A stretch of DNA of 64,000 bases from Sipunculus nudus (Eukaryota > Annelida > Sipuncula > Golfingiida > Sipunculidae). Positions 2,505 through 57,227 of the stretch are shown here, in pieces. The translations under genes and the position numbers were made by a program. The stretch lies in contig CM049306.1 in NCBI GenBank assembly GCA_026874595.1, positions 4,230,019 through 4,294,018 of the forward strand. The letters are read 5' to 3'. How positions within the stretch are numbered: the first letter of the stretch is position 1; each line of letters begins with the position of its first letter. The notes beneath the pieces were generated by a model, which did not search any database, had not been told where the DNA came from, and was given only the letters and a program-made list of their open reading frames with translations.

Positions 2505-2590
2505 GGTGTCTTGTGTAAATGGTGTTTGCTCACCGGGAGGAGGATGCGAGTGCCGAGGATGCTACGAAGGAGAGACCTGCAACATATATG
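2505..2590 (+). CDS. Exon a: EGF-like module
   Basis: Follows acceptor ...ttctacag and ends before gtaagc. The first base completes a codon from an exon outside the window. It encodes VSCVNGVCSPGGGCECRGC followed by YEGETCNIY: six Cys in EGF-like spacing (C-x4-C-x5-C-x-C-x2-C-x5-C), though short. Ends in phase 1, joining as V-D to the cadherin exon. The next intron (2591-5831) contains the 47-bp array. Confidence 0.82.
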
Positions 2591-5500: not shown

Positions 5501-8500
5501 AGGCGATAATGCTGAAATGATATTAACGCAATACCTCGAAAAGAATTAGAGCACAGTCAGTAAAATTGCAGCATTGATGCACCTAGGGCTAGGTAAATTG
5601 TGAATATGGATGACCTTCATGCAGTTTTCAAGGTCACAGAGGTAATCTTGATAAGTGACATTGACCCATCCTGAGTTTCATACATGCATTCATAACTTTT
5701 TTTCCCCTATTTCCACAACAGGCTTGGGACTTTCTAGATCTGTTCCACAGATCAACTTTTCCCTTGTTTCTGACTATGCTCAATCCTGCATTATACACAA
5801 TACATATAACTGCGTCTTACTTTCTTTACAGTGGACTACTACCCGCCAGCCTTTTTAGAACATCGCGTTGATGTGCCTGTCACAACTGAGACGGAGCGGG
5901 AAGGACCAGTGTATCATGCTAAGGTCACTGATGACGACAGACAGGTCACGTGTCAGGGAGAGGTACCATGCGACTGCGCAGACGTGATATATTCGCTGAA
6001 CACGACATATGGCGATATTTTCCGGATTGACCCGAACACAGGTGACGTGTACTTCAATGCACAGTCGGCCGTCAAACAAGCCCAGCGGTATCCTCTGGCA
6101 GTTAAAGCAAAGAATATCAACCAGCAATCAACAACAGCTATCGCCAAGATGGAACTTGTGGTACAGATTGTCACCCCGGAAGACGACCTAGTAGCGGGAA
6201 TCGAGGGCGAGGCGAAACACGAGCAGGACAAGTGGTCCAATCCTTCCCAAGAACAAGAAGACGATCTCATCCATTCACGGCAGAGGAGGGTAATGTGCTC
6301 CAAATACGCCATTTTGTAACCGTAGCTTAGTGTATTTAGGAAATCATAATTATGAATAGAAATATAATTATTAGGGAGGGAGTCTACTTTGAGGAATTTA
6401 ATTGCAGAAGTACAAGTTATGGAAGTACAAGGGTTGAAGGGGGGAGGCAGAAGCCTTAGAAAAAAAATGTTATTCCCTGATAGTCTTTATAAAAATCAGA
6501 AATCAAATGTTCCATACGACACTATATATTTTAGGAAATATTATGAAGCGCTTATGCTTAATCTTACATAAGTGCTTATTTATGAATCAACAGTATTTTT
6601 TTAATATGTTTTCGTTCTTAAACAGTTCATATATGTTTTCAATTATTTTTACTACTAAAATCATATTATTAAATTATAAACTAACAAATAAAAAAAAACA
6701 TAAGAATAAGTTTTCACAATGACTGTCACAGCAACTTGCTTTTCCACAGTCCTTCCAAGTGTCGGAAGCGATTCCGGACAACGTCACATTTTACCTTGAA
6801 AAAATTGAGAACACTACGACAATGTATATCGGCAGCAAAGTTCACTTTAAGCTGGGCATCCACTTCCCCAGAGATACAACGGACATGCTTGTAGAGCTGT
6901 TCACGCCAGACAACGAGACTACGGTGATGATCCTGTGTGGAGTGCAGATCACGTCTATAGGAAGCAACCTGAGTCCTGACATGAGGGACAACATCCAGGA
7001 GGAGTCCAAGGATAACAGTAGTGCAAATGTACGTGTTGTACGTTGTGTGTTTCCAATGTGTATTTACCACATTCAGATATAATCTTATGGTAAAATCACA
7101 GTCCCTACTGACCTACACTTTTACCCTGGCGTACTGATATATTTCACAACCAGTATTTGCCAGTTAATTCAAGGATATTGCAATTTGATAGTTTGGCGTG
7201 TTGAGGAATATTATAAAATATGCAAGTATATAAATATATATATATATATATTATATGGTATTTTTAGGATTGTTTATAGGTCGCTGATTCATTATTCATG
7301 AATTCAATTGTGCCTTGGGTTGTATGGTTTATTTCAACTGGCTTTCACTTTTGAAACTGCTGATATTCCATATGGTTTATGCTAACCTTTGTTAACGTGC
7401 AGATTGACCGGGCCATCATTAAGTTCGGCAATGTAACGAATAATGAATCAAATACGACCGATTCAGACGCATCCATGATTGTTATTGAGTGGGACGCCGT
7501 CATGATTGACAACAACGAGACTCAGAACGGGTCTACATACTGGGTAAGCGCCGGAGCAGAGTACAACAACGAGGACGAAGTGTGGGTCGGCCAGGCCTCT
7601 TTCACCACCATCCTGGAGGACACGGTGAGTGTACGCCCACAGCAGAACATGCTATACCTGGCTCAGGTCTTAAATAATTAGGAGGTATCAGGCCACTCTG
7701 GTCTCTTGTACCGGGACGGTGACGTCATCAGAGAACAGAAGATGACTCTCGGTGCGGCGGGTACGGGCAGTGTCCGCAGAAAGAAAACCTGGTTAAAAAC
7801 TCCTGAAACATTAATCGCTTTGCCTCTCGTAACAATGTCCTGTCAAAGGGTAAAAAGGACGTATAAGACAGTCCAACGTGTAGTATGTTATCTGTTTTTT
7901 TGGTCAAATTAATACTTTAACGTGAATATTTGGAGTGAAAATAATTGTAAAGCTTGTGAAATGTGTTTCTATGTTTTTGTTTACTTTTAACGTCTGAAAA
8001 TTAACATGCATGTCATATTTTGAATGATAGCTGTTGTTGAGCACTTTAAAACAGGATCTAGAAATGTTTCTGTATGCTCATGGGTACACCCTTTCTCAGA
8101 GATAAAGATAAAACGTTCATCTATTCCCTTCAAATTATCCAATTTTTTTATCTCTTTCACAACAGTCTAATAATGGCCTGCCCGACTTCAATTTCACCGG
8201 CCCATCGGAGATCGAGATCGGCGCGTCGGCGAAGTTCAGGGTGGACATGTACATTCCATATCCGTCAGTAACTCTAGCCTTCGATGCCTTTGCACCTTTA
8301 AACGCCGTTGATGTGATGTCAGTGTGTAGTGTGGTAATCGCCGACACGGGCGAAAACTATAAGTGCTTACGGAAAGATAAATTCCGCAATGTATTACACT
8401 TAAGTGATTCCAAGCTCACCAACGCACGAGGCAGGATCGACCTCGGCACGGTTATCAATACAGGTAATCATATATTAAACTCAGCTACTTACCTCCTCTT

Positions 8501-8888
8501 CCATAGGTTATAAGGGATTCCTGTTTTACTCTGTGTACCAATCCATGAACACGAGATCATTCCTGTAATGGAAAGTTCTTACAACGCCTCTGTGGAAGAA
8601 GTGTGTTAGTAAACATGGCAATGTTGACAAAAGATATAACCCAAGTTGTTTGGTTGCATACATATTCGCAGATGTTGAAAGGTCATATTGACGTGCCGTG
8701 AAATGACCTTGTTAAATGTGTTTGGATTTTTGTAATACTGACACAAGGAAACAAAAAAAACTCTATTTTTGAATAAGGTTCAAGGAATTATCTTTTGTTT
8801 ATATCGTCAGTTATATAATTGAGCCCATTTAAACACTTTTACTAGTGGTGTAAGTTTATGATAACTTTGTTTTGCTTACCATACATTC

Positions 8889-8937
<49 letters not shown>

Positions 8938-11900
8938 CCGATCCCGGTCAGGACCAGAGACTTAATTGACCAGTCCAGCTTCCGACCAAGCTTAAGGCCA
9001 GTCTGAATCTGGTTTAGCCGTTATTTAAATGAGGGGTTAGGACCGTATCCAAGTCAAGATTATGACCGATCAGCCAAAACGGCATAAATTGAAAAGGCAG
9101 GTTTGCGGTAGGGAGAATAAAATATCGAAACGAGGGAATATTTATAAACACCAGAAGAACACTCATATAGAACTTTATTTATCTGATGTATAAACGTTTA
9201 ATGTATATTATTTGTATATACGGTCGATTAGACAGTCCATTTAAAAAGCTATAATCAAGGGGGAAATTGTCGGAGATTGTTTTCAGCATATTTCCTACAT
9301 CACCTTTTATTAACTGTGGACACGTGTTTTGTTGATGTTTTATCACGATACCCGCGAAAAATGCTCTTAATTCGCGCAGTGCATCTGAACAGCCGCCATA
9401 TTTCCACTTGAAAATTCTGGAGGCTTTACGAATAGGTAGGCCTACCTAAATGTACGTTGAGCAAAGCAAGTCTCTGCATATGGCATTTGTCGACCAAGAC
9501 ATTCGAACAAAATAGCTGCCATGCATATTTATTCGCGAGTGCTAACTTCTAGATCTGAAGAGTTAATGATTTTTGTGGAGGTAAGCAAGGTGTGTTCTAG
9601 CCTTTACATTATTCGGTGTTTTCTTCTATTCTTTCTTACACCAAACTTTCCCGGAGCTTTCCCGATTGCACAACAGAGGCTCTTGCAAGTTGCTTAGCCC
9701 GGCAAGGCTAAGTGCTTTAAAAGAAAAGATGGTGCTGCCTTTGTATCTCACTCAGTGGGAGACCTACCAGCATTATTAAGAAAGAAACCAATCGCCTTCA
9801 CGGTCACCAGCCTTAAAAATAAAGGACGACTCTCTGTCACTGATCAACAAGTTGGCATATCTAGGCTCTCTACAAACAACACCAACAGTATATGGAGGGC
9901 GCTCTGGACGTGCGCATCGGCAAGGCCTCCATTTTTTTGTCAGATTGAGCATAAGCGTTTGGAACAACAAGCACCTTTCTCTGCAGATGATAGTCAGGGT
10001 TTACCACGCTTGTGGCCTAAGTACTCTCTTGTATGCCGGTGAGACGTGATCAGAAACAGGTTAAACTCCATAACACCTTCTTGGGTGTACCCACGTAAAT
10101 TAAGTAAATCTGACTTAAACAAATAACGACGTTCACCGGACAGAAGATATCCACCTACCAAAACAAATCTTACGGTGAACTGGCTACGGCTCTCATGCCT
10201 GTCTACGATACATGGCTGCGTTCAATGTGTATGTCAAAAACTGGGTGGATATCGCCACAGATCATTCTGGCGCTTGGTCGTTGCCAGAAGATCCAAGGTA
10301 TTCTAGGCTTCATGCCTGGAAACATTGGAGGAGAAACGTCAGGTTGTTCATCGCTTGCGACATAAAAAAGCGAGATAGAGAGAGCCCTACCGATAAACTT
10401 CGATCAAAGCCAAATACCGCAGTGGAATTTCGCGAGTGCCAATAAGTTCCCGTTCTCAATTTCTAATGTATTCTTTCAGCTTTGGTGAACCCTGGTATTT
10501 AAAAATTTATTAACACTTTGTTAGCAGAGTGAACCCCGCAAAGAGGCGTCAGTTATAGCTCTGCCTGAAGAAGATATGAAATTGTACCCGTACCATTACT
10601 GGAACGACAGTGTCCAAAAGGAAACACAAACCAGGAGAGAAGATTCAAAATCTTGCGAATATAATTCGACAGAAATTTTCTTCCCGAGATTTCGATCGAG
10701 TCGATCAGGGACCCGCCAGATGAAGTAACGATGAAAATACTGAATGCGCTGTGTTCCATGTTTTGTTGTACAGTCGTTCTGATGAAGAGCCTGGACATTA
10801 CGTTCCTCTTACAAACAGCACACAAGCCGTGTTGGAGGAAAGTATTCATAATACAATGGTTAATCCATCTGTAAGGTGTCCTGCGTAATATCCTTGCATC
10901 CTTGGTAGCGGCACATGACTGATTTGACTGTCCGATGAAGTCGACGCAAAACCGATATTTTGCCGACCACGGACCATGCCCTTCGTCATCCTTGAGAACC
11001 CCGACCGGTTAGTGGATATTTCAAGCAGTCTGTGATTGAGGTAGCCCAATACCTAAATGATATATTTTTTCAAAAGTAATCTTGTCGAGGAACGCGAGGG
11101 AACACAGTTGCTGCAACACCTACGAGAAAAAGACCTAGATTCAAGATGGAGAAATGCGTCTCTGTTATACGCATAACTGGAACATATATCATCTCCCGAA
11201 TGGCATCGCAAGGAAATGGAGTTCACATTCTAGAAACTTTAATCCACTGACATATTACTTAACTGTCATTCATAATAGTCTCTCGAGTATACGGCAAACG
11301 TACTTCAAACCTCCGTCTCATTCGGAAGTAATGTAAATTGGTTTACACCTTTTTTAAAAGACTGGCTATGTGTAGGTTCTTGTATACAAGATTTTACACC
11401 TGAGGAAGGGGTCCGAGCAACCGAAAGCTCGTGTACAAGAACCTGCAGAAAACTAGTCCTTTAAAAAGGTGTCAACCATTTACATTACTTTTTTGTAAGT
11501 AACAGACTAGCACGGCATTTCAAAACTCTAATTCAGAAGGATAGCCATGCGGAAGTACGTAGAAAAACATATTGCAGAGTCTGAAGCTAATTCTGTGTAG
11601 TAGTCATGACACGCTTCATATCCGTACCCGGGTATTGCTGTAGCCATAGGATGCGTCAGATGCAGTTATTAGAGTTCACTTTGACACTGGTTTACCATTA
11701 CTCGGGTGAAAGCGAGCGCCCAGTCGCCAGCGTTTCTGAAACATCAAAGGACTGTGAAAGCTGTAACAGACGGGGATCCAGCAGCAGGCTATATGCTGTT
11801 GTGGACATGCAGGGGCAGAATTCCATAAGAGTCCCCGTATTTGAGCAGAATAAAGGGACAGCAAAGAATCAAAATATTTTTATAAAATTTAAATTTTGAG

Positions 11901-38900: not shown

Positions 38901-39434
38901 AGACGGACAGTTACCTGAGTGTAACAATGAATCGTTATGTAATGCTTCACAGAGAGACGGACAGTTACCTCAGTGTAACAATGAATCGTTATGTAATGCT
39001 TAGCAGAGAGACGGACAGTTACCTCAGTGTAACAATGAATCGTTATGTAATGCTTTACAGAGAGACAGAGGGCGAGGTTTCAAACATGCGAACATGAGAA
39101 ACCTTCACACGTTTATGCATACAATTATATGATGTCTTCGTAAATTAATAGCGGTTAATTTTTCTTTTCAGTGGCACAATTGAGATCGACTGTGTAATGC
39201 AACACGACAACCTGTCAAGGGCGGAAGGTTACAACGTCACCGCGACCTTGTACTTCCCGCCATTTATTTCCTTCAAAGCGATAACCACCGATAATATGAC
39301 ACTCGTGCCGACCGTCAAAAACACCACAGGCTTCGAGGGGATCCAGATGGTCGTGAGTACCAAACAAGACAAAACACACAAATACTACTTTGTAGATCTT
39401 AAGCTGATACCAAGAGTTCTAACTTTTCTTCATT

Positions 39435-39516
<82 letters not shown>

Positions 39517-48500: not shown

Positions 48501-48538
48501 TAATCATATATATATATACATTTATATATACATAAATT

Positions 48539-48589
<51 letters not shown>

Positions 48590-51500
48590 GAATATGTCAC
48601 TCAGAGATGCTGAAAAAGTTATATGTGTGTGTATATATAAATATACAAAGTCATCCCCCCCACCCTGGAAGAAAAATTGACGCCACTGTATACCATTACC
48701 AGTCATAACTCGCTCTCAAAATAGAGTATAATGTATCAATACCTCTAATAACTCGCTCTCACTATACAGAAAAATGTATCATTACTGGTAATAACTCACT
48801 CTCACTATACATTATCATGTATCATTACTGGTAAATACTCACTCTCACTATACATTATCATATATCATTACTAGTAATAACTCCCTCTCAAAATAGAGTA
48901 TAAAGTATCATTACCAGTAATAACTCACTGTAACTATACAGAAAAATGTATCATTACTGGTAATAACTCACTCTCACTATACATTATCATATTTCATTAC
49001 CAGTAATAACACACTCTCACTACACAGTATCTTGTATCATTACAGGTAATAACTCGTCTCACTATACAGTATCATATATCATTACTAGTAATAACACACT
49101 CTCACTATACAGTATCATATATCATTACCGGTAATAACTCACTCTCACTATACATTATCATGTATTATTACAGGTAATAACTCACTCTCACTATACATTA
49201 TCATATATCATTACTAGTAATAACTCCCTCTCAAAATAGAGTATAAAGTATCATTACCAGTAATAACTCACTGTAACTATACAGTATCATATATCATTAC
49301 TGGTAATAACACACTCTCACTATACAGTATCATATATCATTACCGGTAATAACTCACTCTCACTATACATTATCATGTATTATTACAGGTAATAACTCAC
49401 TCTCACTATACATTATCATATATCATTACAAGTAATAACACACTCTCACTATACAGTATCATATATCATTACCGGTAATAACACACTCTCACTATACAGT
49501 ATCTTATATCATTACCGGTAATAACTCACTCTCACTATACATTATCATGTATTATTACAGGTAATAACTCACTCTCACTATACATTATCATATATCATTA
49601 CTAGTAATAACACACTCTCACTATACAGTATCATATATCATTTCCGGTAAAAACACACTCTCACTATACAGTATCATATATCATTACCGCTAAAAACACA
49701 CTCTCACTATACAGTATCATATATAATTACCGGTAATAACTCACTCTCACTATACATTATCATGTATCATTACAGGTAATAACTCACTCTCACTTTACAT
49801 TATCATTACTAGTAATAACTCGCTCTCAAAATAGAGTATAAAGTATCATTACCTGTAATAACTAACTGTAACTATACAGAAAAATGTATCATTACTGGTA
49901 ATAACTCACTCTCACTATACATTATCATACTTCATTACCAGTAATAACACACTCTCACTACACAGTATCTTGTATCATTACAGGTAATAACTCGCTCTCA
50001 CTATACAGTATCATATATCATTACTAGTAATAACACACTCTCACTATACAGTATCATATATCAGTACCAGTAATAACACACTCTCACTATACAGTATCAT
50101 ATATCATTACCGGTAATAACTCACTCTCACTATACATTATCATGTATCATTACAGGTAATAACTCACTCTCACTATACAGTATCATATATCATTACCAGT
50201 AATAAGTCGCTCTCAAAATAGAGTCTAATGTATCATTACCACTAATAACTCACTGTAACTATACAGTCAAATGTATCATTTCTGGTAATAATACACTCTC
50301 ACTACACAGTATCTTGTATCATTACAGGTAATAACTCGCTCTCACTATACAGTATCATATATCATTACTAGTAATAACACTCTCTCACTATACAGTATCA
50401 TATTTCATTACCAGTAATAACACACACTCACTACACAGTTTCATGTATCAATACAGGTAATAAATCACTCTTAATATACAGTATCATATATCATTTCAAG
50501 AAATAATTTGCTCTCACTTTACAGTATCATATATCTTTACTGGTAACAACTCACTCACTATTCAGAATCATGTATCATTACTGGTAATAACTTGCTCTCA
50601 CTTTTCGGTATCATGTATCATTACTGGCGATGACACCCTCTCACTATACAGTATTATGTTTTATTACTGGTAATAACTCGCTCTCCTGCAGATATTTAAA
50701 AAATATCTGTCTATAAAAATATATCTATTATAATTGTATATTGGAACTTAAATGGCCATGCTTTTTTTCGGCAATAGGCTTTTTTGTTAATGAAATTCTA
50801 CTTGATTTAAATTGTGATACATATATTAAGTGATGCAATATAGTTACAGAATAAAGAATGGATAACTATTGAGATTTTTCCAAAAAATACAAAACAGTAG
50901 TTATATGATAGGAGAACAATAAACACTCTGGTAGGAGAACAATAAACACTCTGATAGGAGAACAATAAACACTCTGACAGGAGAACAATAAACACTCTGA
51001 CAGGAGAACAATAAACACTCTGACAGGAGAACAATAAACACTCTGACAGGAGAACAATAAACACTCTGATAGGAGAACAATAAACACTCTGATAGGAGAA
51101 CAATAAACACTCTGATAGGAGAACAATAAACACTCTGATAGGAGAACAATAAACACTCTGATATGAAACCACATCAAAACAAATGTACCACTGAGCCTTT
51201 TCCCTTTTACAGAATTCAGCAGCAGAAGTTTCCTGGCTGTAAATGGAGATGTTTACTTCTGTGATGAAATTCCTGACAGGTAGGGGTTGTTCTGTTTGTT
51301 AATACAGCATTCATCATATTACAATAGCAATAACACTGATAACAAAGAGGTACTTATAACAAGATACCAATAACTAGGTACTGATAACAAGATACTGATG
51401 ACAAAAAAGTGCTGATAACAAGGTACTTTTACCAAGATAATGATAACAAGGTACTGATAACAAGGTACATTTAACAAGATAATGATAACAAGATACTGAT

Positions 51501-54500
51501 AACAAGGTACTGATATTTACAAGGTACTGTTAACAAAATAATGATAAAAAGGTACAGTTAACAAGATAATGACAACATGCTACTGATAACAAGCTATTGA
51601 TAACAAGATACTGATGACATGCTCATTGTAACAAGACCAGGGTAACGGTAACAAGACCAAGGTAATGATAACAAGACCTTGGTAATGGTAACAAGACCAA
51701 GGTAATGATAACAAGACCAAGGCAATGGAAACAAGACCAAGGTAATGGTAACAAGACTAAGGTAATAAAACAAGAACTAGTGATGGTAACAAGACAAGGT
51801 AACAAGACCCAGGTAATGGTAACAAGACCAAGGAAATGCTAAAAAGACGTCGGTTATGGTAACAAGACCAAGGTAATGGTAACAAGACCATGGTTATGGT
51901 AACAATACCAAGGTAATAGAAACAAAACTAAAATGAAGTATATTTGTCATTTTAGTCACCATCCCATGTAGGCACGTGAATGGGATTTTAAACGGAGTGT
52001 GATCTGCAACTGTAAAAGGGAGACAACCCATCAGTTTATCTATTATCTCAATTTTTAAAGACACAATTCTGTAATGATAAGCTTATTTCATGAACCCGAG
52101 CTTAAATATGTCTATGAACCTTATAAAACGGGATTTCTTTTGTTTGGATGTTTATTTAAAGTGAGTCTGCTTGTTTTCAGTGTTGACAACAGTTTACAGT
52201 GCTACGCCAGCGACGGAACTACATTTAGAGGCAAGTGGTCGAAATGTTTCTGTTTCCATGGAAATTGAGAATAATTTCATCTTCATTTCCCTTGTACGAA
52301 ACTGACTAAATAATAAAATTGTGTGTTCCATTTTCTCCTCATATAAGAATCATACAAACCAGGATGGAATGTCATATCTACAAAAGAGTAATCCAATTCT
52401 GGGAACTGATATTGGAAAAATAAATTTTGGGAATATTTTCTTTAACTTCATAGAAAGGATCTGGTTTATATTGAAAAACATTGAGTTAGAAGGTTCAAAG
52501 CTTTACGGGTTTCTTGCCCTACCGGTGTTGTATACTTTGACTGCAGTTCTCAGTGATGTTATGCCTCCTGACATTGGAACTTCTCATCGGACTGCAGTTT
52601 TTTTAATAAATGTCACTTCAAATTATAATTTATACAGTATTCTGACACCATGTTAATTTTTTTTATTGGAGCTAATAAGGTTGGCAATACTTTAAAAGTC
52701 GACTTGAGTCAAAACCATTTACAATATGAAGGACATCTGTCATTTTTTGCGATTTCATATATTTGGAAATCTTCCTCGGGCCAATAGGGTACCTCAGCAT
52801 GCCTTTATTATTAATTACTGTAATCTTGTGTTCATTTAGTGGAACGCATAACATTTACGTAAGGCATAAAAACTGGATAATTCCTTTGTATATTCTTATA
52901 CATTTGACTGGATTGCCAACGTAAATATATAAGGTTTCACTTCGTTGAGCTGAAATATGATAAAAGCTAATCGAAAGTTTAATCGAAAAAATGGATAACT
53001 TCTAAATCGTTCAACATTTGAATGCTAGATGGCGCTGAGAAGCAAAAGCGGTAGGTACCCCATTCCTATTAAACTGTATATTAAACTGTATAGAAATAAA
53101 CGGCTACACTTTATTTTAGCGCTGGACAAGAACGTGGTAAACGTGATTGGGTATGACCAGGAAGAGGGCGGGGTACTGTACGGCATCGCGCAGGACAAAC
53201 AGTCCTACGTGGCCAGTGAAGACCAGGGAACGACATGGTTCTCCGTATCCCCTGAACGCTTCAACCAAGCGGACAGTAAAGGAACGTTCATGCGAGCTAA
53301 AGAGGTCCCATGGGTCAACGATGCAGACATGAGTTCGCCTTCACCCGCTGCCACATATACGGTGGGAAGCTGGGGAGGTAAGTGCCTACATAAAACGAAT
53401 CGCTGACTTACAGGTCTCACTAAGACGACCATGTTTTGGACCGTAGAAAATGGATAGGTGGAGATATCTGTTTTTGTTTTGTTTTGTTTTTTGTTTTTTG
53501 TTTTTTTTTTTTTGCTTCTTTTTTTGCATCTTCTTCTCATTCGCCTTCTTGTTATTATTATCCTGTAATTTTTTTCATGCGATTTAATTAATACTCACCT
53601 ATAATATACCTTGATATGGCCCAGTGATTTTACCCAGTTTCAGTGACCTCACCTGTTATTCAAGGTTATTCAACACTTTTTTGGGATTTTCAATGTCGAT
53701 TTTATCCTTATCTTTAAGAGTCCGAATGGATAAAAAAACATAATATCTGGTTCCCATTATTACTGGGGGTCCGCCTTGACTTCACTTATGGAACCATATG
53801 AGATCGGTGACTCATTACTTTTCATTTAGGCTACGTTTCCGGATAAACCATATAACATAGAAAGATGAAACTTTTACAGTTATATGCCATTTACAACATA
53901 GGGGCAAGTTTAGTAGTGATACCTTTAAAAGTTTGTGTATAATATGCAAATTATGAAAATAATCTGTACGTTTTTCAGCTAATCTGTGAAAACTCAAGAA
54001 AGAATTACTACAGTTCCTCTTAGACTAATACGGGTGGATGAAACATTTGAGATTCGGGTGTTGGGATGGACGGGGGGCCATAGGTGGAGATCCATAACTG
54101 TCCTATGACAGTTACAACAAAGTCTATTTATAGTTAATGCTTTGTGGGATCTTGCTGATCTCTCCGTTAGGAAATGTAATCTGTCATAAATCCTTTGGTA
54201 TGTTTGATTCGATGATGATGAGATGTGACCGAAACAGCTCTGTATTATCCTTTAATTCATCAAACTCGTATTCCTGTCACATAAGATAACGTCATGTGCA
54301 CAATCTATCCTCGCCAATATAAGATAACGTAATGTGTACAATCTATCCTCGCCAATATTAGATAACGTCATGTGTACAATCTCTCCTCGCCAATATTAGA
54401 TAACCACATGTGTAAAATCCATCCTCGCCAATATTAGATAACGTCATGTGTACAATCTCTCCTCGCCAACATTAGATAACGTCATGTGTACAATCTCTCC

Positions 54501-57227
54501 CCGCCAATATTAGATAACGTCATGTGTACAATCTCTCCCCGCCAATATTAGATAACGTCATGTGTACAATCTCTCCCCGCCAATATTAGATAACGTCATG
54601 TGTACAATCTCTCCCCGCCAATATTAGATAACGTCATGTGTACAATCTCTCCCCGCCAATATTAGATAACGTCATGTGTACAATCTATCCTCGCCAATAT
54701 AAGGTAACGTCATGTGTACAATCTATCCTCGCCAATATTAGATAACGTCATGTGTACAATCTCTCCTCGCCAATATTAGATAACAACATGTGTAAAATCC
54801 ATCCTCGCCAATATTAGATAACGTCATGTGTACAATCTCTCCTCGCCAATATTAGATAACGTCATGTGTACAATCTCTCCCCGCCAATATTAGATAACGT
54901 CATGTGTACAATCTCTCCCCGCCAATATTAGATAACGTCATGTGTACAATCTCTCCCCGCCAATATTAGATAACGTCATGTGTACAATCTCTCCCCGCCA
55001 ATATTAGATAACGTCATGTGTACAATCCATCCTCGCCAATATTAGATAACGTCATGTGTACAATCTATCCTCGCCAATATTAGATTACAACATGTGTACA
55101 ATCTATCCTCGCCAATATAAGATAACGTCATGTGTACAGTCCATCCTCGCCAATATTAGATAACGTCATGTGTACAGTCCATCCTCGCCAATATTAGATT
55201 ACGTCATGTGTACAGTCCATCCTCGCCAATATTAGATAACGTCATGTGTACAATCTATCCTCGCCAATATTAGATAATGTCATGTGTACAATCCATCCTC
55301 GTCAATATTAGATTACGTCATGTGTACAATCCATCCTCGCCAATATTAGATTACGTCATGTGTACAGTCCATCCTCGCCAATATTAGATAACGTCATGTG
55401 TACAGTCCATCCTCGCCAATATTAGATAACGTCATGTGTACAATCTATCCTCGCCAATATTAGATAATGTCATGTGTACAATCCATCCTCGCCAATATTA
55501 GATTACGTCATGTGTACAATCCATCCTCGCCAATATTAGATTACGTCTCATGTGTACAATCCATCCTCGCCAATATGAGATAACGTCATGTGTACAATCC
55601 ATCCTCGCCAATATGAGATAACGTCATGTGTACAATCCATCCTCGCCAATATGAGATAACGTCATGTGTACAATCCATCCTCGCCAATATTAGATAACGT
55701 CATGTGTACAATCTCTCCTCGCCAATATTAGATAACGTCATGTGTACAATCTCTCCCCGCCAATATTAGATAACGTCATGTGTACAATCTCTCCACGCCA
55801 ATATGAGATAACGTCATGTGTACAATCCATCCTCGCCAATATGAGATAACGTCATGTGTACAATCTATCCTCGCCAATATGAGATAACGTCATGTGTACA
55901 ATCTATCCTCGCCAATATTAGATTACGTCATGTGTACAATCCATCCTCGCCAATATGAGATAACGTCATGTGTACAATCCATCCTCGCAAATATTAGATA
56001 ACGTCATGTGTACAATCCATCCTCGCCAAGATGAGATAACGTCATGTGTACAATCCATCCTCGCCAAGATGAGATAACGTCATGTGTACAATCTATCCTA
56101 GCCAATATGAGATAACGTCATGTGTACAATCCATCCTCGCCAAGATGAGATAATGTCATGTGTACAATCTATCCTCGCCAAGATGAGATAACGTCATGTG
56201 TACAATCTATCCTCGCCAATATGAGATAACGTCATGTGTAAAATCTATCCTCGCCAATATGAGATAACGTCATGTGTACAATCCATCCTCGCCAATATGA
56301 GATAACGTCATGTGTACAATCTATCCTCGCCAATATTAGATAACGTCATGTGTACAATCTATCCTCGCCAATATTAGATAACGTCATGTGTACAATCTAT
56401 CCTCGCCAATATGAGATAACGTCATGTGTAAAATCTATCCTCGCCAATATGAGATAACGTCATGTGTACAATCTATCCTCGCTAATATGAGATAACGTCA
56501 TGTGTACAATCTATCCTCGCCAATATTAGATAACGTCATGTGTACAATCTATCCTCGCCAATATTAGATAACGTCATGTGTACAATCTATCCTCGCCAAT
56601 ATTAGATAACGTCATGTGTACAATCCATCCTCGCCAATATTAGATAACGTCATGTGTACAATCCATCCTCGCCAATATTAGATAACGTCATGTGTACAAT
56701 CTCTCCTCGCCAATATTAGATAACGTCATGTGTACAATCTCTCCTCGCCAATATTAGATAACGACATGTGTACAATCCATCCTCGCCAATATTAGATAAC
56801 GTCATGTGTACAATCCATCCTCGCCAATATTAGATAACGACATGTGTAAAATCCATCCTCGCCAATATTAGATAACGACATGTGTACAATCTCTCCTCGC
56901 CAATATTAGATAACGACATGTGTACAATCCATCCTCGCCAATATTAGATAACGTCATGTGTACAATCTCTCCTCGCCAATATTAGATTACGACATGTGTA
57001 CAATCTATCCTCGCCAATATTAGATAACGACGTGTAAAATCCATCCTCGCCAACATTAGATAACGACATGTGTAAAATCCATCCTCGCCAATATTAAAAA
57101 AAAATGCCGTGTGCCTGCTGTCTGTGACGAAATAATAATTCATATTCATTTTGTTTCAGCAAACTACAACGGGATGTACCATAGCGGGATCCTGAAAAGT
57201 GATTGGACCAAATGCTGCTCAACATAG
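2505..57227 (+). CDS. Multi-exon gene for a large extracellular EGF / cadherin / repeat / discoidin protein (5' end outside window)
   Basis: Twenty-six exons joined by matching splice phases give one open frame of 1825 codons plus TAG; no exon needs a frameshift. Visible order: EGF-like (residues 1-28), cadherin-like domain (about 30-150), linker with furin-type site RQRR (178-181), eight related repeats of about 160 residues (R1 182-348, R2 349-511, R3 512-673, R4 674-839, R5 840-1009, R6 1010-1180, R7 about 1181-1342, R8 about 1343-1501), F5/8C domain (1503-1652) and a C-terminal region with an Asp-box (1750-1757). Many NxS/T sequons and conserved Cys indicate an extracellular protein; no membrane segment is seen before the stop. 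The repeats recall, at motif level, bacterial DUF11/isopeptide-type surface repeats (a 'LG.(V/I).NTG' turn followed by a beta strand), but that relation is inference. I do not recognise a named orthologue. All introns are GT-AG except one GC-AG (after 52230). Confidence 0.88.
2745..3030 (-). repeat. Degenerate copies of the 140-bp GGTGGCGCC family (left flank of array B)
   Basis: Blocks with 'catatctcagg.gtggttgg', 'tgtattgccctga' and GGTGGCGCC (2960). Read on the minus strand they match the 'ccactgcagagatatgag' blocks at 59995-60830. A further copy lies at 4560-4690. Confidence 0.65.
3031..4536. repeat. Minisatellite B, 47-bp unit, about 32 copies
   Basis: Very uniform unit built from CTCTGCATGTCCTTAGACCT and GGGATACCTGTTAGCGTCAC plus CTACAAA. 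Most units are identical, with single-base variants mainly in the last third. Lies in the intron between the EGF and cadherin exons. Confidence 0.97.
4560..4690 (-). repeat. 140-bp GGTGGCGCC family copy (right flank of array B)
   Basis: Contains 'cggacatatctcaggagtgg', 'tgtattatcctgaa' and 'gatggcgccacctacaaac'. The last block resembles the end of the 47-bp unit (cacctacaaac), so array B probably expanded from part of such a copy. Confidence 0.6.
5168..5660. repeat. Three imperfect 145-bp tandem copies with AAGGTCA motifs
   Basis: Unit starts at 5238, 5384 and 5529 ('gcaat.actca') share 'gcattgatgca' and 'aaggtca.ag'. A leading segment 'ttcgtcgccgaaggcgagga' (5168) looks like the edge of a dispersed element. 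TCAAGGTCA occurs in both orientations. Confidence 0.75.
5832..6289 (+). CDS. Exon b: cadherin-like domain and furin-type cleavage site
   Basis: Acceptor tttctttacag, donor gtaatg. The product begins DYYPPAFLEHRVDVPV and shows cadherin-repeat hallmarks in order: P-x-F start, V-x-V strand, A-K-V-T-D-D-D, 'VIYSLN', 'FRIDPNTGDVYF', 'YPLAVKAKN' and a final 'MELVVQIV' strand. The classical LDRE and DxNDN calcium motifs are not intact, so calcium binding is uncertain. An acidic linker follows, and the exon ends exactly on HSRQRR, a furin consensus (R-x-R/K-R). The next exon starts in phase 0 with SFQVSEAIPD, so cleavage would release the repeat/discoidin part from the EGF-cadherin part. Confidence 0.88.
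6750..7028 (+). CDS. Exon c: repeat R1, N-terminal half
   Basis: Acceptor cttttccacag, donor gtacgt; phase 0 at both ends. Encodes SFQVSEAIPDNVTFYLEKI to the end KDNSSAN. It contains the repeat hallmarks 'IGSKVHFKLGIHFP' and 'VELFTPDNET' and the first conserved Cys (MILCGVQITSIG), but the second Cys of the C-x12-C pair is absent (SNLSPD instead). Confidence 0.88.
7233..7256. repeat. (TA)n microsatellite
   Basis: Short TA run in the intron between the two halves of R1. Confidence 0.9.
7403..7624 (+). CDS. Exon d: repeat R1, C-terminal half
   Basis: Acceptor taacgtgcag, donor gtgagt, phase 0-0. Starts IDRAIIKFGNVTNNESN and includes 'MIVIEWDAVMIDN', 'YWVSAGAEYNN' and the family signature VWVGQ before the end LEDT. 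The inner intron of R1 lies before the FGNVTN turn in phase 0, unlike any other repeat in the gene. Confidence 0.88.
8166..8463 (+). CDS. Exon e: repeat R2, N-terminal half
   Basis: Acceptor tctttcacaacag, donor gtaatc. Starts SNNGLPDFNFTGPSEIEIG; contains the Cys pair CSVVIADTGENYKC and ends in the turn 'IDLGTVINT' with phase 1 inside the NT|G codon. Confidence 0.88.
8891..8934. repeat. (TA)n microsatellite
   Basis: Perfect TA run of about 44 bp in the intron splitting R2. Confidence 0.95.
9840..10445 (+). pseudogene. Decayed non-LTR retrotransposon reverse-transcriptase C-terminal fragment
   Basis: Shifted between frames, the translation gives 'GALDVRIGKAS', 'SVWNNKHLSLQMIVRVYHACGLSTLLYAGET', 'SYGELAT', and 'FNVYVKNWVDIATDHSGAW' followed by 'RNVRLFIACDIKKRDRE'. 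This order (RIGKA, WNNKHLTLQ.K..VY.ACVLSTLLYGSETW, YGELA, W.D.A.DRSAWR) is the familiar C-terminal end of RT proteins of non-LTR elements common in invertebrates. Several frameshifts and stops separate the blocks, so it is dead. It lies in the intron that splits R2. Confidence 0.8.
10446..11330. other. Intron sequence, possibly further mobile-element debris
   Basis: More GC-rich than the surrounding intron, with short ORFs on both strands (98 and 67 codons on minus) that I do not recognise. Its position between the RT relic and a large inverted repeat suggests transposon debris, but this is not shown. Confidence 0.4.
11335..11490. repeat. Nested inverted repeat (hairpin-forming)
   Basis: Outer arms 'ggtttacaccttttttaaaa' and 'ctttaaaaaggtgtcaacc' and inner arms 'gtaggttcttgtatacaag' and 'cgtgtacaagaacctgc' are inverted copies around 'cctgaggaaggggtccgagc'. 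Such a structure is common at ends of mobile elements. Confidence 0.7.
11944..12062. repeat. Imperfect tandem duplication, 63-bp period
   Basis: 'catagtgatta.gc.atcaat' and 'ttgcactacgttttgt' occur twice, 63 bp apart, just upstream of exon f. Confidence 0.8.
12242..12432 (+). CDS. Exon f: repeat R2, C-terminal half
   Basis: Acceptor acacctgacag, donor gtaggc. Completes the Gly of NTG and reads TRDPATNTNERNRISVEFV, then 'YWVGAAVEIGTNQIWAGQLNITAVNRTQSNM'-type sequence; the WAGQ signature is present. Ends in phase 0. The preceding 3.8-kb intron carries a retrotransposon relic. Confidence 0.87.
12433..13542. other. Intron between R2 and R3
   Basis: No gene seen. A stretch at 12605-12670 ('tgtggttagttcgtttggtc') is faintly tRNA/SINE-like but lacks a good B box. 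Confidence 0.5.
13543..14028 (+). CDS. Exon g: complete repeat R3 in one exon
   Basis: Acceptor ttctttttacag, donor gtgaga, phase 0-0, 162 codons. This is the reference repeat: 'TPVFSLSGPSS', 'VYVGQVAMFELSMELP', 'YSLEVLSPFNES', Cys pair CTLEIISTGDNVPC, 'WDLGKLMNTGHKSNSEEDKI', 'KFRIVAEVLNHT', 'FWLTVGVQFD', 'RLWVGQKGVNI'. It is the only repeat with no inner intron; at the place where R2, R5 and R7 have their phase-1 intron (NT|G) the sequence AACACAGGTCATAAG is continuous coding sequence. Confidence 0.92.
14468..14578 (+). mobile_element. Short inverted-terminal element (MITE-like), copy 1
   Basis: Begins GGGGCGTCAATATAGGGG, continues 'ggatgggggtata', has a 19-base C run near its end (14541-14559) and closes with AAATTGACGCC, the inverted partner of GGCGTCAAT. 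Matches two other copies in this gene's introns. No coding capacity, about 110 bp. Confidence 0.75.
14807..15066 (+). CDS. Exon h: repeat R4, N-terminal half
   Basis: Acceptor tttttgcag, donor gtaagt. Starts NDTTPTFSLSYAFGSDHVPV; contains 'ADIRMEITTQP', 'MEIILPFENDT' and the Cys pair CRAEVLFAGRNMPC. Ends in phase 2 before the LG-turn. Confidence 0.9.
15067..16532. other. Intron within R4
   Basis: Non-coding apart from the 78-bp duplication at 15363-15520. Confidence 0.6.
15363..15520. repeat. Two-copy tandem duplication, 78 bp
   Basis: 'cagacacactggtagccatc' starts at 15363 and 15441, with nearly identical sequence through 'tccctggtcctctaagacag'. Recent duplication; each copy carries 'ttacag' that could mimic an acceptor. 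Confidence 0.9.
16533..16770 (+). CDS. Exon i: repeat R4, C-terminal half
   Basis: Acceptor ctcattctacag, donor gtaaag. Starts (K)GNNTSVYDKATIKLGRVCNTG, with an extra Cys in the turn that R6 shares, then 'IVIRIIVKVEDHV', 'VWVSAGIMYSETRMWVGQIAL'. Ends in phase 0 after DTPQ. Confidence 0.9.
17375..17678 (+). CDS. Exon j: repeat R5, N-terminal half
   Basis: Acceptor tatactgctgtag, donor gtaagt. Starts ITAEPYINTTRFDAHGDGLV; contains 'NAIYRTTIKSARQSIGHYRIVV', the Cys pair CNVRIAEAGFNIPC and the turn 'LDLGYLTNV' ending in phase 1. The first strands diverge more from the consensus than those of R2-R4. Confidence 0.88.
17679..19911. other. Intron within R5, left part
   Basis: AT-rich with a (GA)n tract at about 17709-17727. 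No gene or known element recognised. Confidence 0.6.
19912..19932. repeat. Poly-G tract, 21 G
   Basis: Uninterrupted G run directly before the 34-bp array. It could form G-quadruplex DNA. Confidence 0.95.
19960..21035. repeat. Degenerate minisatellite E, about 34-bp unit
   Basis: About 30 diverged copies of a unit with 'ggcatcaatattttgtttat' and 'acgatcgggcattc'. Divergence is far higher than in arrays B or G, so it is older. The unit begins with the same GGCATCAATA that ends the adjacent inverted-terminal element. Confidence 0.85.
21030..21133 (-). mobile_element. Short inverted-terminal element, copy 2
   Basis: On the minus strand it begins GAGGGGCATCGATATAGGGG, runs through 'tgggggtatatatat' and 'gggggggatggtcaatg', and ends 'aatattgatgcc'. 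It aligns over most of its length with copy 3 at 48242. Confidence 0.75.
21134..21939. other. Intron remainder before exon k
   Basis: No gene or repeat recognised. Confidence 0.5.
21940..22145 (+). CDS. Exon k: repeat R5, C-terminal half
   Basis: Acceptor tttttatatatcag, donor gtaagt. Reads GDSGYYQNDTIFDNDTVSVE, then 'IVVQVSGDTSLVTAGNFLSFSVDVELNGQSVQGADVKQV'-type sequence. The WVGQ signature is not conserved. Phase 1 to phase 0. The preceding 4.3-kb intron holds a G tract, the 34-bp array and an inverted-terminal element. Confidence 0.86.
22380..22642 (+). CDS. Exon l: repeat R6, N-terminal half
   Basis: Acceptor tctgtccacag, donor gtgtgt. Starts NATIPTFQFNIAPNFNGDST; contains 'KGETVKFYLDVIPQP', 'VKFLTPVNESG' and the Cys pair CSADVIFVGANLPC. 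Ends in phase 2, as in R4. Confidence 0.9.
22643..24097. other. Introns flanking the R6 microexon
   Basis: Apart from exon m (23098-23185) nothing coding is seen; AT-rich. Confidence 0.6.
23098..23185 (+). CDS. Exon m: repeat R6, LG-turn microexon
   Basis: Acceptor tttttaatttcag, donor gtcagt. This 88-bp exon encodes (R)QGSDYNDIGNLDLGIVCHSQ then IESGPEADK. It carries the turn motif with the extra Cys shared with R4 (VCNTG / VCHSQ). Phase 2 to phase 0. R6 is the only repeat split into three exons. Confidence 0.84.
24098..24259 (+). CDS. Exon n: repeat R6, C-terminal part
   Basis: Acceptor tttttattacag, donor gtatgt, phase 0-0, 54 codons. Starts IRIEAIARLTRVSSLSEGDR and carries 'WFSSTVRINDDQIFVSQLAINVTS', where the WVGQ signature is changed to FVSQ. 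Confidence 0.88.
24260..25042. other. Intron between R6 and R7
   Basis: AT-rich; no recognised element. Confidence 0.6.
25043..25352 (+). CDS. Exon o: repeat R7, N-terminal half
   Basis: Acceptor cttctgcccatag, donor gtattt. Starts TNSSLALNVTNGPLEWRPGE; contains 'YTVQVKVEVPANCSVYG', 'VDIDLPVNESAVMTV' and 'RFLSSGDNLAC'. Here the first Cys of the C-x12-C pair is replaced and only the second remains. Ends 'LDLGIITNT' in phase 1. Confidence 0.9.
25525..26115. repeat. Degenerate minisatellite F, 28-bp unit
   Basis: About 18 copies of 'gagcgaaaccttgaattatt' plus 'gatgtacg'. Two larger blocks ('cagaactgaggactcct..actacgactct', about 25865 and 26105) repeat about 240 bp apart, showing a higher-order duplication. 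Confidence 0.88.
26281..26524 (+). CDS. Exon p: repeat R7 C-terminal half and start of R8
   Basis: Acceptor gtgctattacag, donor gtatgt. Reads (G)RTYRIDKFKEEDNSFWLEIE, then 'HKLSIGARIGSSVIILDKQVVVV', then DGTETPNITLTADVNNTLPY QTP. The last part looks like the opening strand of the next repeat, so no intron separates R7 from R8. Ends in phase 2 and is followed by the largest intron (12.6 kb). Confidence 0.87.
26525..27313. other. Start of the 12.6-kb intron, non-repetitive
   Basis: No coding or repeat structure recognised. Confidence 0.55.
27314..39066. repeat. Giant minisatellite G, 54-bp unit, about 217 copies
   Basis: The unit contains ACAGTTACCTCAGTGTAACA, ATGAATCGTTCTGTAATGCT and TCACAGAGAGACGG. 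It lies wholly inside the intron between exons p and q. Because 54 = 18 codons and the unit lacks stops in one frame of each strand, it is open for 3044 codons on plus (29963-39097; consensus MNRSVMLHRETDSYLSVT) and for 1333, 1066 and 598 codons on minus (consensus KHYRTIHCYTEVTVRLSV). The left 2.7 kb has more indels and short units; the right 5 kb is very uniform. It is not a gene on present evidence. Confidence 0.96.
39172..39352 (+). CDS. Exon q: repeat R8, middle part
   Basis: Acceptor tttttcttttcag, donor gtgagt. With the split codon it reads PGTIEIDCVMQHDNLSRAEG, then 'YNVTATLYFPPFISFKAI' (the strand and LP-like motif of the family) and 'TTGFEGIQMV'. Phase 2 to phase 0. It lies only about 100 bp beyond the end of the 54-bp array. 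Confidence 0.88.
39437..39513. repeat. (TA)n microsatellite
   Basis: About 76 bp of perfect TA repeats in the short intron within R8. Confidence 0.97.
39681..39909 (+). CDS. Exon r: repeat R8, C-terminal part (diverged)
   Basis: Acceptor gaatctttccag, donor gtacga. Starts FERLYFTDKFTFTVSLDVSA; later 'YETGCNIIWRANHVNDTGTFFVTQLDSLAYRV'. The strand order fits the repeat family, but the turn and WVGQ signature are lost. Phase 0 to phase 1. Confidence 0.86.
39910..40930. other. Intron before the discoidin domain
   Basis: AT-rich, no recognised element; one 89-codon ORF without family resemblance. Confidence 0.6.
40931..41056 (+). CDS. Exon s: F5/8C (discoidin) domain, first part
   Basis: Acceptor cgaccattcag, donor gtaagt, phase 1-1. 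Starts GCQPEQSLGMEVGGSIKDCQ then ITSSHSPDSSRP: the typical discoidin opening C-x-x-P-L-G-M-x-x-G-x-I-x-D-x-Q-I-T-x-S. The first Cys of the domain is at residue 1503. The donor is also the origin point of the 81-bp array. Confidence 0.93.
41057..44085. repeat. Minisatellite H, 81-bp unit, about 37 copies, starting at a splice donor
   Basis: The unit holds 'ctcccacgatcaccgtctct', 'tgtcttgttcatggtaacta', 'attggataactcatccacat' and 'aaacaaggataagttact'. The first, divergent 78-bp unit begins with the true donor of exon s (gtaagtcact at 41057); the next begins 'gggtaagttact' (41135), later ones 'gggttagtgact', then 'ggataagttact'. Copies in the middle are almost identical. Confidence 0.96.
44414..44592 (+). 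CDS. Exon t: F5/8C domain, middle part
   Basis: Acceptor tggaatccttcag, donor gtaggt. Reads (G)WTSAARSGNFEKYLQVSFGN, 'VTRVTKVTLEYPT', 'KTYQIKYSDDGYNWELGET', which matches the conserved discoidin core (W-x-x-x, Y-L-Q-V-x-F-G, Y-x-I-x-Y-S-D-D-G-x-x-W). Phase 1 to phase 0. Confidence 0.93.
44593..46600. other. Intron within the discoidin domain
   Basis: Mostly unique sequence. A two-copy 23-bp duplication ('ccggtatatgaatttcttgc') lies at about 45643-45688. No credible additional exon. Confidence 0.6.
46601..46775 (+). CDS. Exon u: F5/8C domain, last part
   Basis: Acceptor actctcttacag, donor gtaagt. Reads VTVTPSLYTTSALHTVSAPT, 'DARYIRLVFTEPEGG', 'VAVRAKFDGC'. ARYIRL and the closing Cys (residue 1652) complete a discoidin domain of 150 residues, the usual length. 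A short tail TMSDDMTPE follows. Phase 0 to phase 1. Confidence 0.92.
46776..48117. other. Intron after the discoidin domain
   Basis: AT-rich, no recognised gene or repeat. Confidence 0.6.
48118..48168 (+). CDS. Exon v: 51-bp linker exon
   Basis: Acceptor aaattgttacag, donor gtaaga. Reads (Q)VCQVYRIWDKSGSARP, phase 1-1. I do not recognise a domain. The placement is supported by the unbroken frame with both neighbours and good splice sites. Confidence 0.75.
48242..48687 (+). mobile_element. Short inverted-terminal element, copy 3, enlarged by internal sequence
   Basis: Begins AGGGGCATCAATATAGGGG, then 'ggatgggggtatatatac', 'ggcaaggggggatggccaat', a C run, about 300 bp of AT-rich sequence with (TA)n at 48542-48586, and ends 'cccccaccctggaagaaaaattgacgcc' (written in part). 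Ends match copy 1; the left half matches copy 2. Confidence 0.72.
48700..50690. repeat. Minisatellite I, 43-bp unit, about 46 copies
   Basis: Unit built from 'tcattaccggtaataactca' and 'ctctcactatacagtatcat'. Moderately diverged, with recurring two-unit combinations. Most units contain GGTAATAACTC, a 5'-splice-site-like sequence. Confidence 0.93.
50910..51163. repeat. Minisatellite K, 23-bp unit, 11 copies, each with AATAAA
   Basis: Unit 'aataaacactctgataggag' plus 'aac'. AATAAA lies at 50918, 50941, 50964, 50987, 51010, 51033, 51056, 51079, 51102, 51125 and 51148 in the sense orientation of the host gene, 50 bp before exon w. Confidence 0.96.
51213..51279 (+). CDS. Exon w: start of C-terminal Asp-box region
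   Basis: Acceptor ttcccttttacag, donor gtaggg. Reads (E)FSSRSFLAVNGDVYFCDEIPD with phase 1 to phase 2. One Cys, probably paired with the Cys in the next exon (inference). It looks like a blade of a beta-propeller-like fold, but this is weak. Confidence 0.78.
51340..51930. repeat. Minisatellite L, 14-20-bp units
   Basis: Left half has 'taacaagatactga' type units; right half has 'caaggtaatggtaacaagac' units of about 20 bp. The two halves share AACAAGA and probably have a common origin. Confidence 0.85.
52181..52230 (+). CDS. Exon x: 50-bp exon with GC donor
   Basis: Acceptor cttgttttcag; the donor is gcaagt, a GC-AG intron with an otherwise ideal context (AGAG|GCAAGT). Reads (S)VDNSLQCYASDGTTFR. 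Only this donor joins in frame to the next exon, forming TTFRALDKNV. Confidence 0.8.
52231..53119. other. GC-AG intron
   Basis: Non-coding by splice context; a 111-codon ORF (52321-52656) within it has no recognised family and is not supported by splice sites. Confidence 0.6.
53120..53377 (+). CDS. Exon y: Asp-box exon
   Basis: Acceptor actttattttag, donor gtaagt, phase 1-1. Reads ALDKNVVNVIGYDQEEGGVL, 'YGIAQDKQSYVASEDQGTTWFSVSPERF'. SEDQGTTW fits the Asp-box consensus S-x-D-x-G-x-T-W found in sialidases and sortilin-type propellers. A single copy does not prove a whole propeller. Confidence 0.86.
54270..57097. repeat. Minisatellite J, 38-bp unit, about 74 copies
   Basis: Unit 'taacgtcatgtgtacaatct' plus 'atcctcgccaatattaga'. 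Variants (ctctccccgcc, ccatcctcgcc, aatatgaga, cgacatg) occur in blocks, showing local duplication of several units at a time. Lies in the last coding intron, ending about 60 bp before the terminal exon. Confidence 0.97.
57160..57227 (+). CDS. Exon z: terminal coding exon with stop
   Basis: Acceptor attttgtttcag. Reads (A)NYNGMYHSGILKSDWTKCCS T and stops at TAG (57225-57227). Phase 1 entry fits exon y. No membrane anchor or GPI-like tail follows, so the protein appears secreted. The preceding intron is filled by the 38-bp array. Confidence 0.84.

Follow-up and report, generated by a model that had tools for sequence, protein, structure and literature searches.

A 64,000-nucleotide stretch of the genome of the sipunculan annelid Sipunculus nudus (GenBank assembly GCA_026874595.1, contig CM049306.1, here C1; C1:4230019-4294018, hereafter the window, with positions counted from its first letter) raises the question of whether exons for EGF-like, cadherin-like, repeat, discoidin and Asp-box parts belong to one gene and, if so, what kind of protein it specifies and where its repeats come from. 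A first-pass annotation had spliced 26 exons into a single clean frame of 1825 codons, in the order EGF, cadherin, convertase site, eight repeats, F5/8C domain and Asp-box end. Our reconstruction and, as the strongest evidence, a paralogue with its parts in the same order confirm one real long gene carrying that domain order, modelled as 25 plus-strand exons between positions 2505 and 57227 (Table 1). The model comprises 5457 coding nucleotides, or 1818 codons and a single stop at the very end, so that the single open frame stands with its exon and codon counts revised. The earlier interpretation is supported in part: one gene and its domain order hold, while the kinship it drew between the repeats and bacterial DUF11 domains is without sequence support.

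One gene and its paralogue

The gene was first rebuilt by a simple exon-chain search followed by a phase check, with weak interposed exons removed by hand, which yielded 21 exons from 2505 to 46779 and 1662 joined, stop-free codons. This independent rebuild reproduced exactly the residues (512-673) previously assigned to the third repeat, R3. Splice phase was also examined by taking the best-scoring AG and GT beside each of 20 open reading frame (ORF) cores picked by eye, phase being ignored; 18 of the 19 junctions were compatible (binomial 3.4e-8). The sole miss, from 22642 to 24098, was resolved by including the small exon 23098-23185, and exon 40931-41056, omitted from the 20 cores, is phase-neutral. 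On the plus strand the chain finder reached a score of 798 with 20 strong exons. The minus strand gave 166 and one strong exon, and five Markov-shuffled versions of the 35 kb that lies outside the satellite arrays gave 56-93 and no strong exon; this control is partly circular in that the codon table was derived from the same exons.

Searching the genome (1.43 Gb in 153 contigs) with R3 recovered its own gene twice, at R3 and at the C-terminal half of R4, together with a weak match at C1:73.677 Mb (E 0.005). The latter belongs to a complete second gene at C1:73.637-73.744 Mb, approximately 69 Mb from the window. This gene runs from an EGF exon through a cadherin exon with RSKR at its end, R1-R8, and F5/8C and Asp-box parts of three exons each, to a short last exon and the stop. 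Its model has 25 exons and 1777 codons with no internal stop, two GC donors being assumed. Since the paralogue keeps the same order of parts throughout, we interpret the locus as one gene with an old architecture. At E<=0.1 a probe from R1 (6750-7028) hit two places in the genome, its own locus and the paralogue, and the reverse search, with paralogue sequence as the probe, led to the same two genes; single-sequence probes of this kind would miss a more diverged third copy.

Identity between the two copies amounts to 44% for the EGF exon, 21% for the cadherin exon, 30% for F5/8C and 22% for the Asp-box part, and to 37, 27, 27, 21, 26, 25, 26 and 21% for R1 to R8. Because 21% identity alone means little, each of 12 window segments was scored against its counterpart and against 500 shuffles of that counterpart, and all 12 outscored 500 of 500 shuffles. 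The weakest were the cadherin segment (15.1 bits, shuffle maximum 7.4) and that of the Asp-box part (15.9 bits, maximum 5.8), whose window exons had been chosen partly by likeness to the paralogue; the EGF exon reached 19.9 bits against a maximum of 10.8, and R8 26.8 against 7.1. The copies also agree in which repeats lack a cysteine, the second being absent from R1 and R1' and the first from R7 and R7'. The simplest reading of these sequence comparisons is that the eight-module gene predates the duplication and that both copies are old. Further, each gene has one repeat contained within a single exon, the third repeat in the window and the fourth in the paralogue (R3' and R4', loci L026-L027), a difference in place that suggests independent loss or movement of introns since the duplication.

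The repeats and their possible relatives

R1-R7 form one family of mutually homologous repeats. Eight had been proposed, and eight modules are present, the kinship of R8 to the others being undetectable by sequence: its best match among R1-R7 has an E of 0.26 and an hhalign probability of 0.8%, leaving R8 without sequence support as an ordinary family member. Among the 14 repeats of the two copies, a pair of cysteines is conserved in 12 of 14 at each of its two positions, and a disulfide at this pair is likely. Lysine occurs in at most three of the 14 in any alignment column; given no lysine column above 3/14 compared to 12/14 for each cysteine, an isopeptide bond is not indicated.

The beta-sandwich nature suggested for the repeats agrees with AlphaFold2, which predicts R3 as a confident beta-sandwich (pLDDT 84) from an alignment that left out the misaligned exon rows 21942-22145 and 26283-26522, the small exon of R6, and R8. 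This predicted fold is about as similar to Gram-positive pilin domains as it is to integrin-alpha legs or cohesins. The first Foldseek rows are cohesins (E 4.6e-6, TM 0.50), and other animal folds, namely complement C3 and arrestin-like domains, are also listed; a family missing from the VIA-align list counts nothing against that family. With cohesin modules the likeness is one of predicted fold, and the present repeats differ in lacking a sequence match and in belonging to an animal protein. TMEM132 proteins contain cohesin-like domains. At the sequence level, no convincing match to the repeats was found in PDB (likewise for the R8 pair), in Pfam, in NCBIfam with the window protein and R3 as queries, in viral contigs, or in plasmids, where R2 searched by tblastn gave a best E of about 1. 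One PDB match to a designed knot protein (E 0.0036 over about 44 residues) was regarded as chance.

Among possible origins, the repeats may have branched off from integrin-alpha leg (calf) domains and diverged, which would make the rod animal-born rather than bacterial, although we consider this only a tentative possibility. A faint collinear signal is present at the start of human integrin alpha-V calf-1, but that domain lies near noise overall, ranking 25 of 3002 in an hmmsearch that included 3000 shuffles and reaching an hhalign probability of 1.7%. None of the 14 repeats is listed for the Pfam Integrin_A_Ig families, in a search whose filters drop most matches above E 0.1, and the five integrin calf matches of the genome lie on other contigs. 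Cohesins and pilins also fit the fold equally well, and Foldseek lists the complement C3 and arrestin-like folds besides. Compared to integrin alpha chains, with their thigh, calf-1 and calf-2 domains, the present protein has eight modules rather than three, adds EGF, cadherin and F5/8C parts, and yielded neither a propeller match in Pfam nor a transmembrane segment.

The kinship first proposed, an animal branch of bacterial DUF11/isopeptide-type repeats arising by descent or ancient gene transfer, appears improbable. Pfam DUF11 (PF01345) matches none of the 14 repeats and nothing genome-wide at E<=0.001, while the search does detect DUF11 elsewhere: 4 of 14 control genomes have matches, as do 39 of 200 from the phylum to which a Thalassospira record belongs. 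A DUF11 profile built from 79 domains at those bacterial loci, its seed leaving out loci read on the wrong strand and all loci then being searched on both strands, aligned to the repeats with an hhalign probability of 15.6% over 25 columns. Conversely, when the repeat profile was run on 299 genomes from the phylum that includes a Roseibium record, 9 matched at E<=0.1; the best per-genome E, 0.001, is non-significant over that many genomes. The DUF11/isopeptide reading is further opposed by the absence of a conserved lysine: in comparison to Gram-positive pilin isopeptide domains and DUF11, the present repeats conserve a cysteine pair instead, within an animal gene that has introns. The exact motif DLGTVTNTG occurs at five places in the prokaryote collection against roughly four expected from a rough uniform-base estimate, and was rejected as a mark of bacterial relatives, its count being near chance and its contexts not DUF11-like by eye. 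On these five places the repeat profile scores at most 11.6 bits, around the motif for which they were selected.

Flanking domains, gene ends and satellite arrays

The flanking domains are assigned with varying firmness. By eye, the EGF exon of the window holds five of the six EGF cysteines and one extra, the first EGF cysteine being expected upstream; it has no meaningful profile match (EGF_alliinase, E 1.4), and its counterpart in the paralogue matches Pfam EGF_Teneurin (E 1.4e-4) at 22.3 bits, just below the 24.3 cut-off. The cadherin exon matches Pfam Cadherin (PF00028) with an E of 6e-5, scoring 23.8 bits by itself and 19.3 bits as part of the long protein against a cut-off of 28.8, which the paralogue exceeds at 31.1 bits. 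Cadherins usually bind calcium through PE, LDRE, DxNDN and DxD motifs. Inspected by eye, both copies contain only DDD- or DAD-like motifs, LDRE- and DxNDN-like ones not being visible, and the domain is probably not a classical calcium-dependent adhesive cadherin. At the end of this exon the position of a putative convertase site is conserved, as RQRR in the window and RSKR in the paralogue.

The F5/8C assignment is certain, with PF00754 matched in the window at E 1.2e-16 (61.4 bits; cut-off 28.2) and in the paralogue at 65.3 bits, and with neuropilin (E 3.1e-10) and CASPR2 (2.1e-9) as matches among PDB sequences. The protein has this domain in common with neuropilin, CASPR, lactadherin and coagulation factors V and VIII; to our knowledge, none of the F5/8C-bearing adhesion proteins has the arrangement of a cadherin and eight repeats. 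The Asp-box part is a motif call (S-x-D-x-G-x-x-W). The window has one exact box (SEDQGTTW) preceded by a loose stretch, the paralogue has an exact box and a second, looser one, and Pfam gives no meaningful match in either copy.

At the 5' end, the first modelled exon opens at a splice acceptor, so that the protein should be longer than the model. A scan of the 40 kb preceding the window for first exons resembling a signal peptide returned a single weak candidate; three more came from the DNA ahead of the paralogue, and the coding score of each of the four is negative. Among those three, the candidate L023 (C1:73633808-73633983; locus 33808-33983) is ATG-led, signal-peptide-like and then Cys-rich, with a good donor and a phase that fits joining to the EGF exon of the paralogue. 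At the 3' end, the tail exons 51213-51279, 52181-52234 and 53094-53377 were picked for phase and for likeness to the paralogue. The donor of 52181-52234 scores 1.2, and the acceptor at 53094 scores 1.5 compared to 2.7 for one at 53120; the two small tail exons and the 53094 acceptor are thus the weakest calls of the model. Alternative tails comprise a direct splice from 46775 to 53120, which is phase-compatible and was chosen by the phase-blind test, or reading of exon 53094 through to a stop at 53406. As first described, the predicted end shows no membrane anchor: no C-terminal hydrophobic anchor is seen in either copy or under the alternative ends of the model, and the most hydrophobic 19-residue stretches of the two copies (Kyte-Doolittle 1.76 and 1.70) fall within the repeats.

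An 11.7-kb array of 54-bp units (27316-39066) occupies the intron before R8 and contains ORFs of 3055 amino acids on the plus strand and 1376 on the minus strand, such long open frames on both strands arising because 54 is divisible by three. The array ORF was rejected as a coding exon on the grounds that unit variation peaks at codon position 2. In its favour, single-change codons include no stops and the ratio of non-synonymous to synonymous changes per possible site is 0.67, although these units share descent and such counts are consequently not independent. Overall, the array looks like a non-coding satellite. Other minisatellite arrays lie in introns and flanks (3-1341, 3031-4534, 41071-44085, 48689-50685, 54284-57096 and 61205-63459), with units of 54, 47, 81, 43, 38 and 41 bp; that at 3-1341 extends about 6.5 kb upstream of the window. 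In the paralogue, an intron at L026 contains a reverse-transcriptase-like fragment (C1:73669602-73669778), which we take to be from a retroelement. Exons directly downstream of the paralogue (L034-L035, C1:73749688-73751684) have the look of a seven-pass receptor, presumably of the adhesion/Methuselah type, and are taken as a separate gene because the terminal exon of the paralogue stops before them.

Table 1. Exons and predicted domains of the modular gene in the window.
Feature	Position	Strand	Remarks
Exon 1, C-terminal part of EGF-like module, six Cys	2505..2590	+	paralogous exon 44% identical
Exon 2, single cadherin-like domain ending in RQRR	5832..6289	+	Pfam Cadherin below cut-off; paralogue above
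Repeat R1 (exons 6750-7028, 7403-7624)	6750..7624	+	
Repeat R2 (exons 8166-8463, 12242-12432)	8166..12432	+	
Repeat R3, one exon, AlphaFold2-modelled	13543..14028	+	
Repeat R4 (exons 14807-15066, 16533-16770)	14807..16770	+	
Repeat R5 (exons 17375-17678, 21940-22145)	17375..22145	+	
Repeat R6 (exons 22380-22642, 23098-23185, 24098-24259)	22380..24259	+	
Repeat R7 (exons 25043-25352, 26281-26524; end of second exon enters R8)	25043..26524	+	last donor weak, score 1.3
Module R8 (exons 39172-39352, 39681-39909)	39172..39909	+	counterpart in paralogue
F5/8 type C (discoidin) domain (exons 40931-41056, 44414-44592, 46601-46775)	40931..46775	+	Pfam PF00754
Asp-box part (exons 51213-51279, 52181-52234, 53094-53377)	51213..53377	+	phase-compatible, counterparts in paralogue
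Probable terminal exon, phase 2, stop 57225-57227	57160..57227	+	short stop-bearing terminal exon at matching place in paralogue

The proposed protein and its meaning

Taken together, these findings suggest that the locus probably holds a functional gene, one member of an old paralogue pair, whose product would be a large modular protein of adhesion or matrix, secreted and heavily glycosylated; each copy contains 49 N-glycosylation sequons. In the proposed scheme, a signal peptide in an upstream exon would route the protein to the secretory path, and a proprotein convertase would cut at the R-x-[KR]-R site that separates the cadherin-like domain from R1. What lies C-terminal to the cut might then form a stiff eight-module rod in which most modules are each pinned by a cysteine pair; its discoidin domain would probably bind the ligand, be it membrane, glycan or matrix, and Asp-box hairpins would terminate the rod. 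The EGF-cadherin piece may be released or kept attached, and cleavage could accordingly serve as maturation or as unmasking. The analysis itself shows the structure of the gene, the order of its domains, their counterparts in the paralogue and, as a prediction for R3, the fold of the repeat, whereas secretion, cleavage, the disulfide, ligand binding and the adhesive or matrix role are inferences.

Several points weigh against this interpretation. The scan upstream of either copy yielded no convincing first exon, and since a signal-peptide exon was not found, secretion is something we infer. The tail exons were called on splice scores that are moderate and on resemblance to the paralogue, and the gene may end otherwise. 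The adhesive and binding role is suggested by sequence, and cadherin-type homophilic adhesion is doubtful because few calcium-binding motifs are kept. The gene model is also a prediction, its exons joined from genomic DNA alone, which leaves room for two or more adjacent genes, e.g. an EGF-cadherin, a repeat and a discoidin protein, having been merged by the model. Such a merger might account for the very long introns with satellite arrays, e.g. that from 26524 to 39172 filled by the 54-bp array, and for some exons, e.g. the cadherin and F5/8C exons, reading on to nearby in-frame stops (6319 and 46783) as unspliced exons would, and no search was made for first exons within the chain; nevertheless, the paralogue holds the parts in the same order with its frame open through its splice phases, and we consider a merger very unlikely. 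That two diverged copies exist might also suggest a decayed copy of the gene on the same chromosome, but 1818 codons without an internal stop, usable splice sites, and a coding signal far above that of the minus strand and shuffles make a pseudogene the least credible reading of all.

The building blocks of the predicted modular protein are of known kinds, and its repeat is absent from the Pfam copy used. We know of no protein with this domain arrangement, and word searches of open-licence literature, covering titles and the openings of abstracts, turned up no description, which proves little. A fuller proposal, which we hold with considerable reserve, is that of an unnamed animal family: a convertase-clipped, secreted rod kept as an ancient two-gene pair, its beta-sandwich repeats missing from Pfam, bearing a conserved Cys pair where isopeptide-bonded pilin domains of similar fold have their lysine, and sharing ancestry with integrin legs. 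If relatives are already annotated, the gene would represent an ordinary mosaic protein of its lineage. If, instead, relatives occur across animals, it would belong to an uncharacterised adhesion or matrix family with a repeat of its own. In that case the gene would supply a model for a domain unnamed in the Pfam copy used, and the repeat, whose predicted fold also occurs in pilins, cohesins and integrin legs, could shed light on the origin of long extracellular rods in animals.
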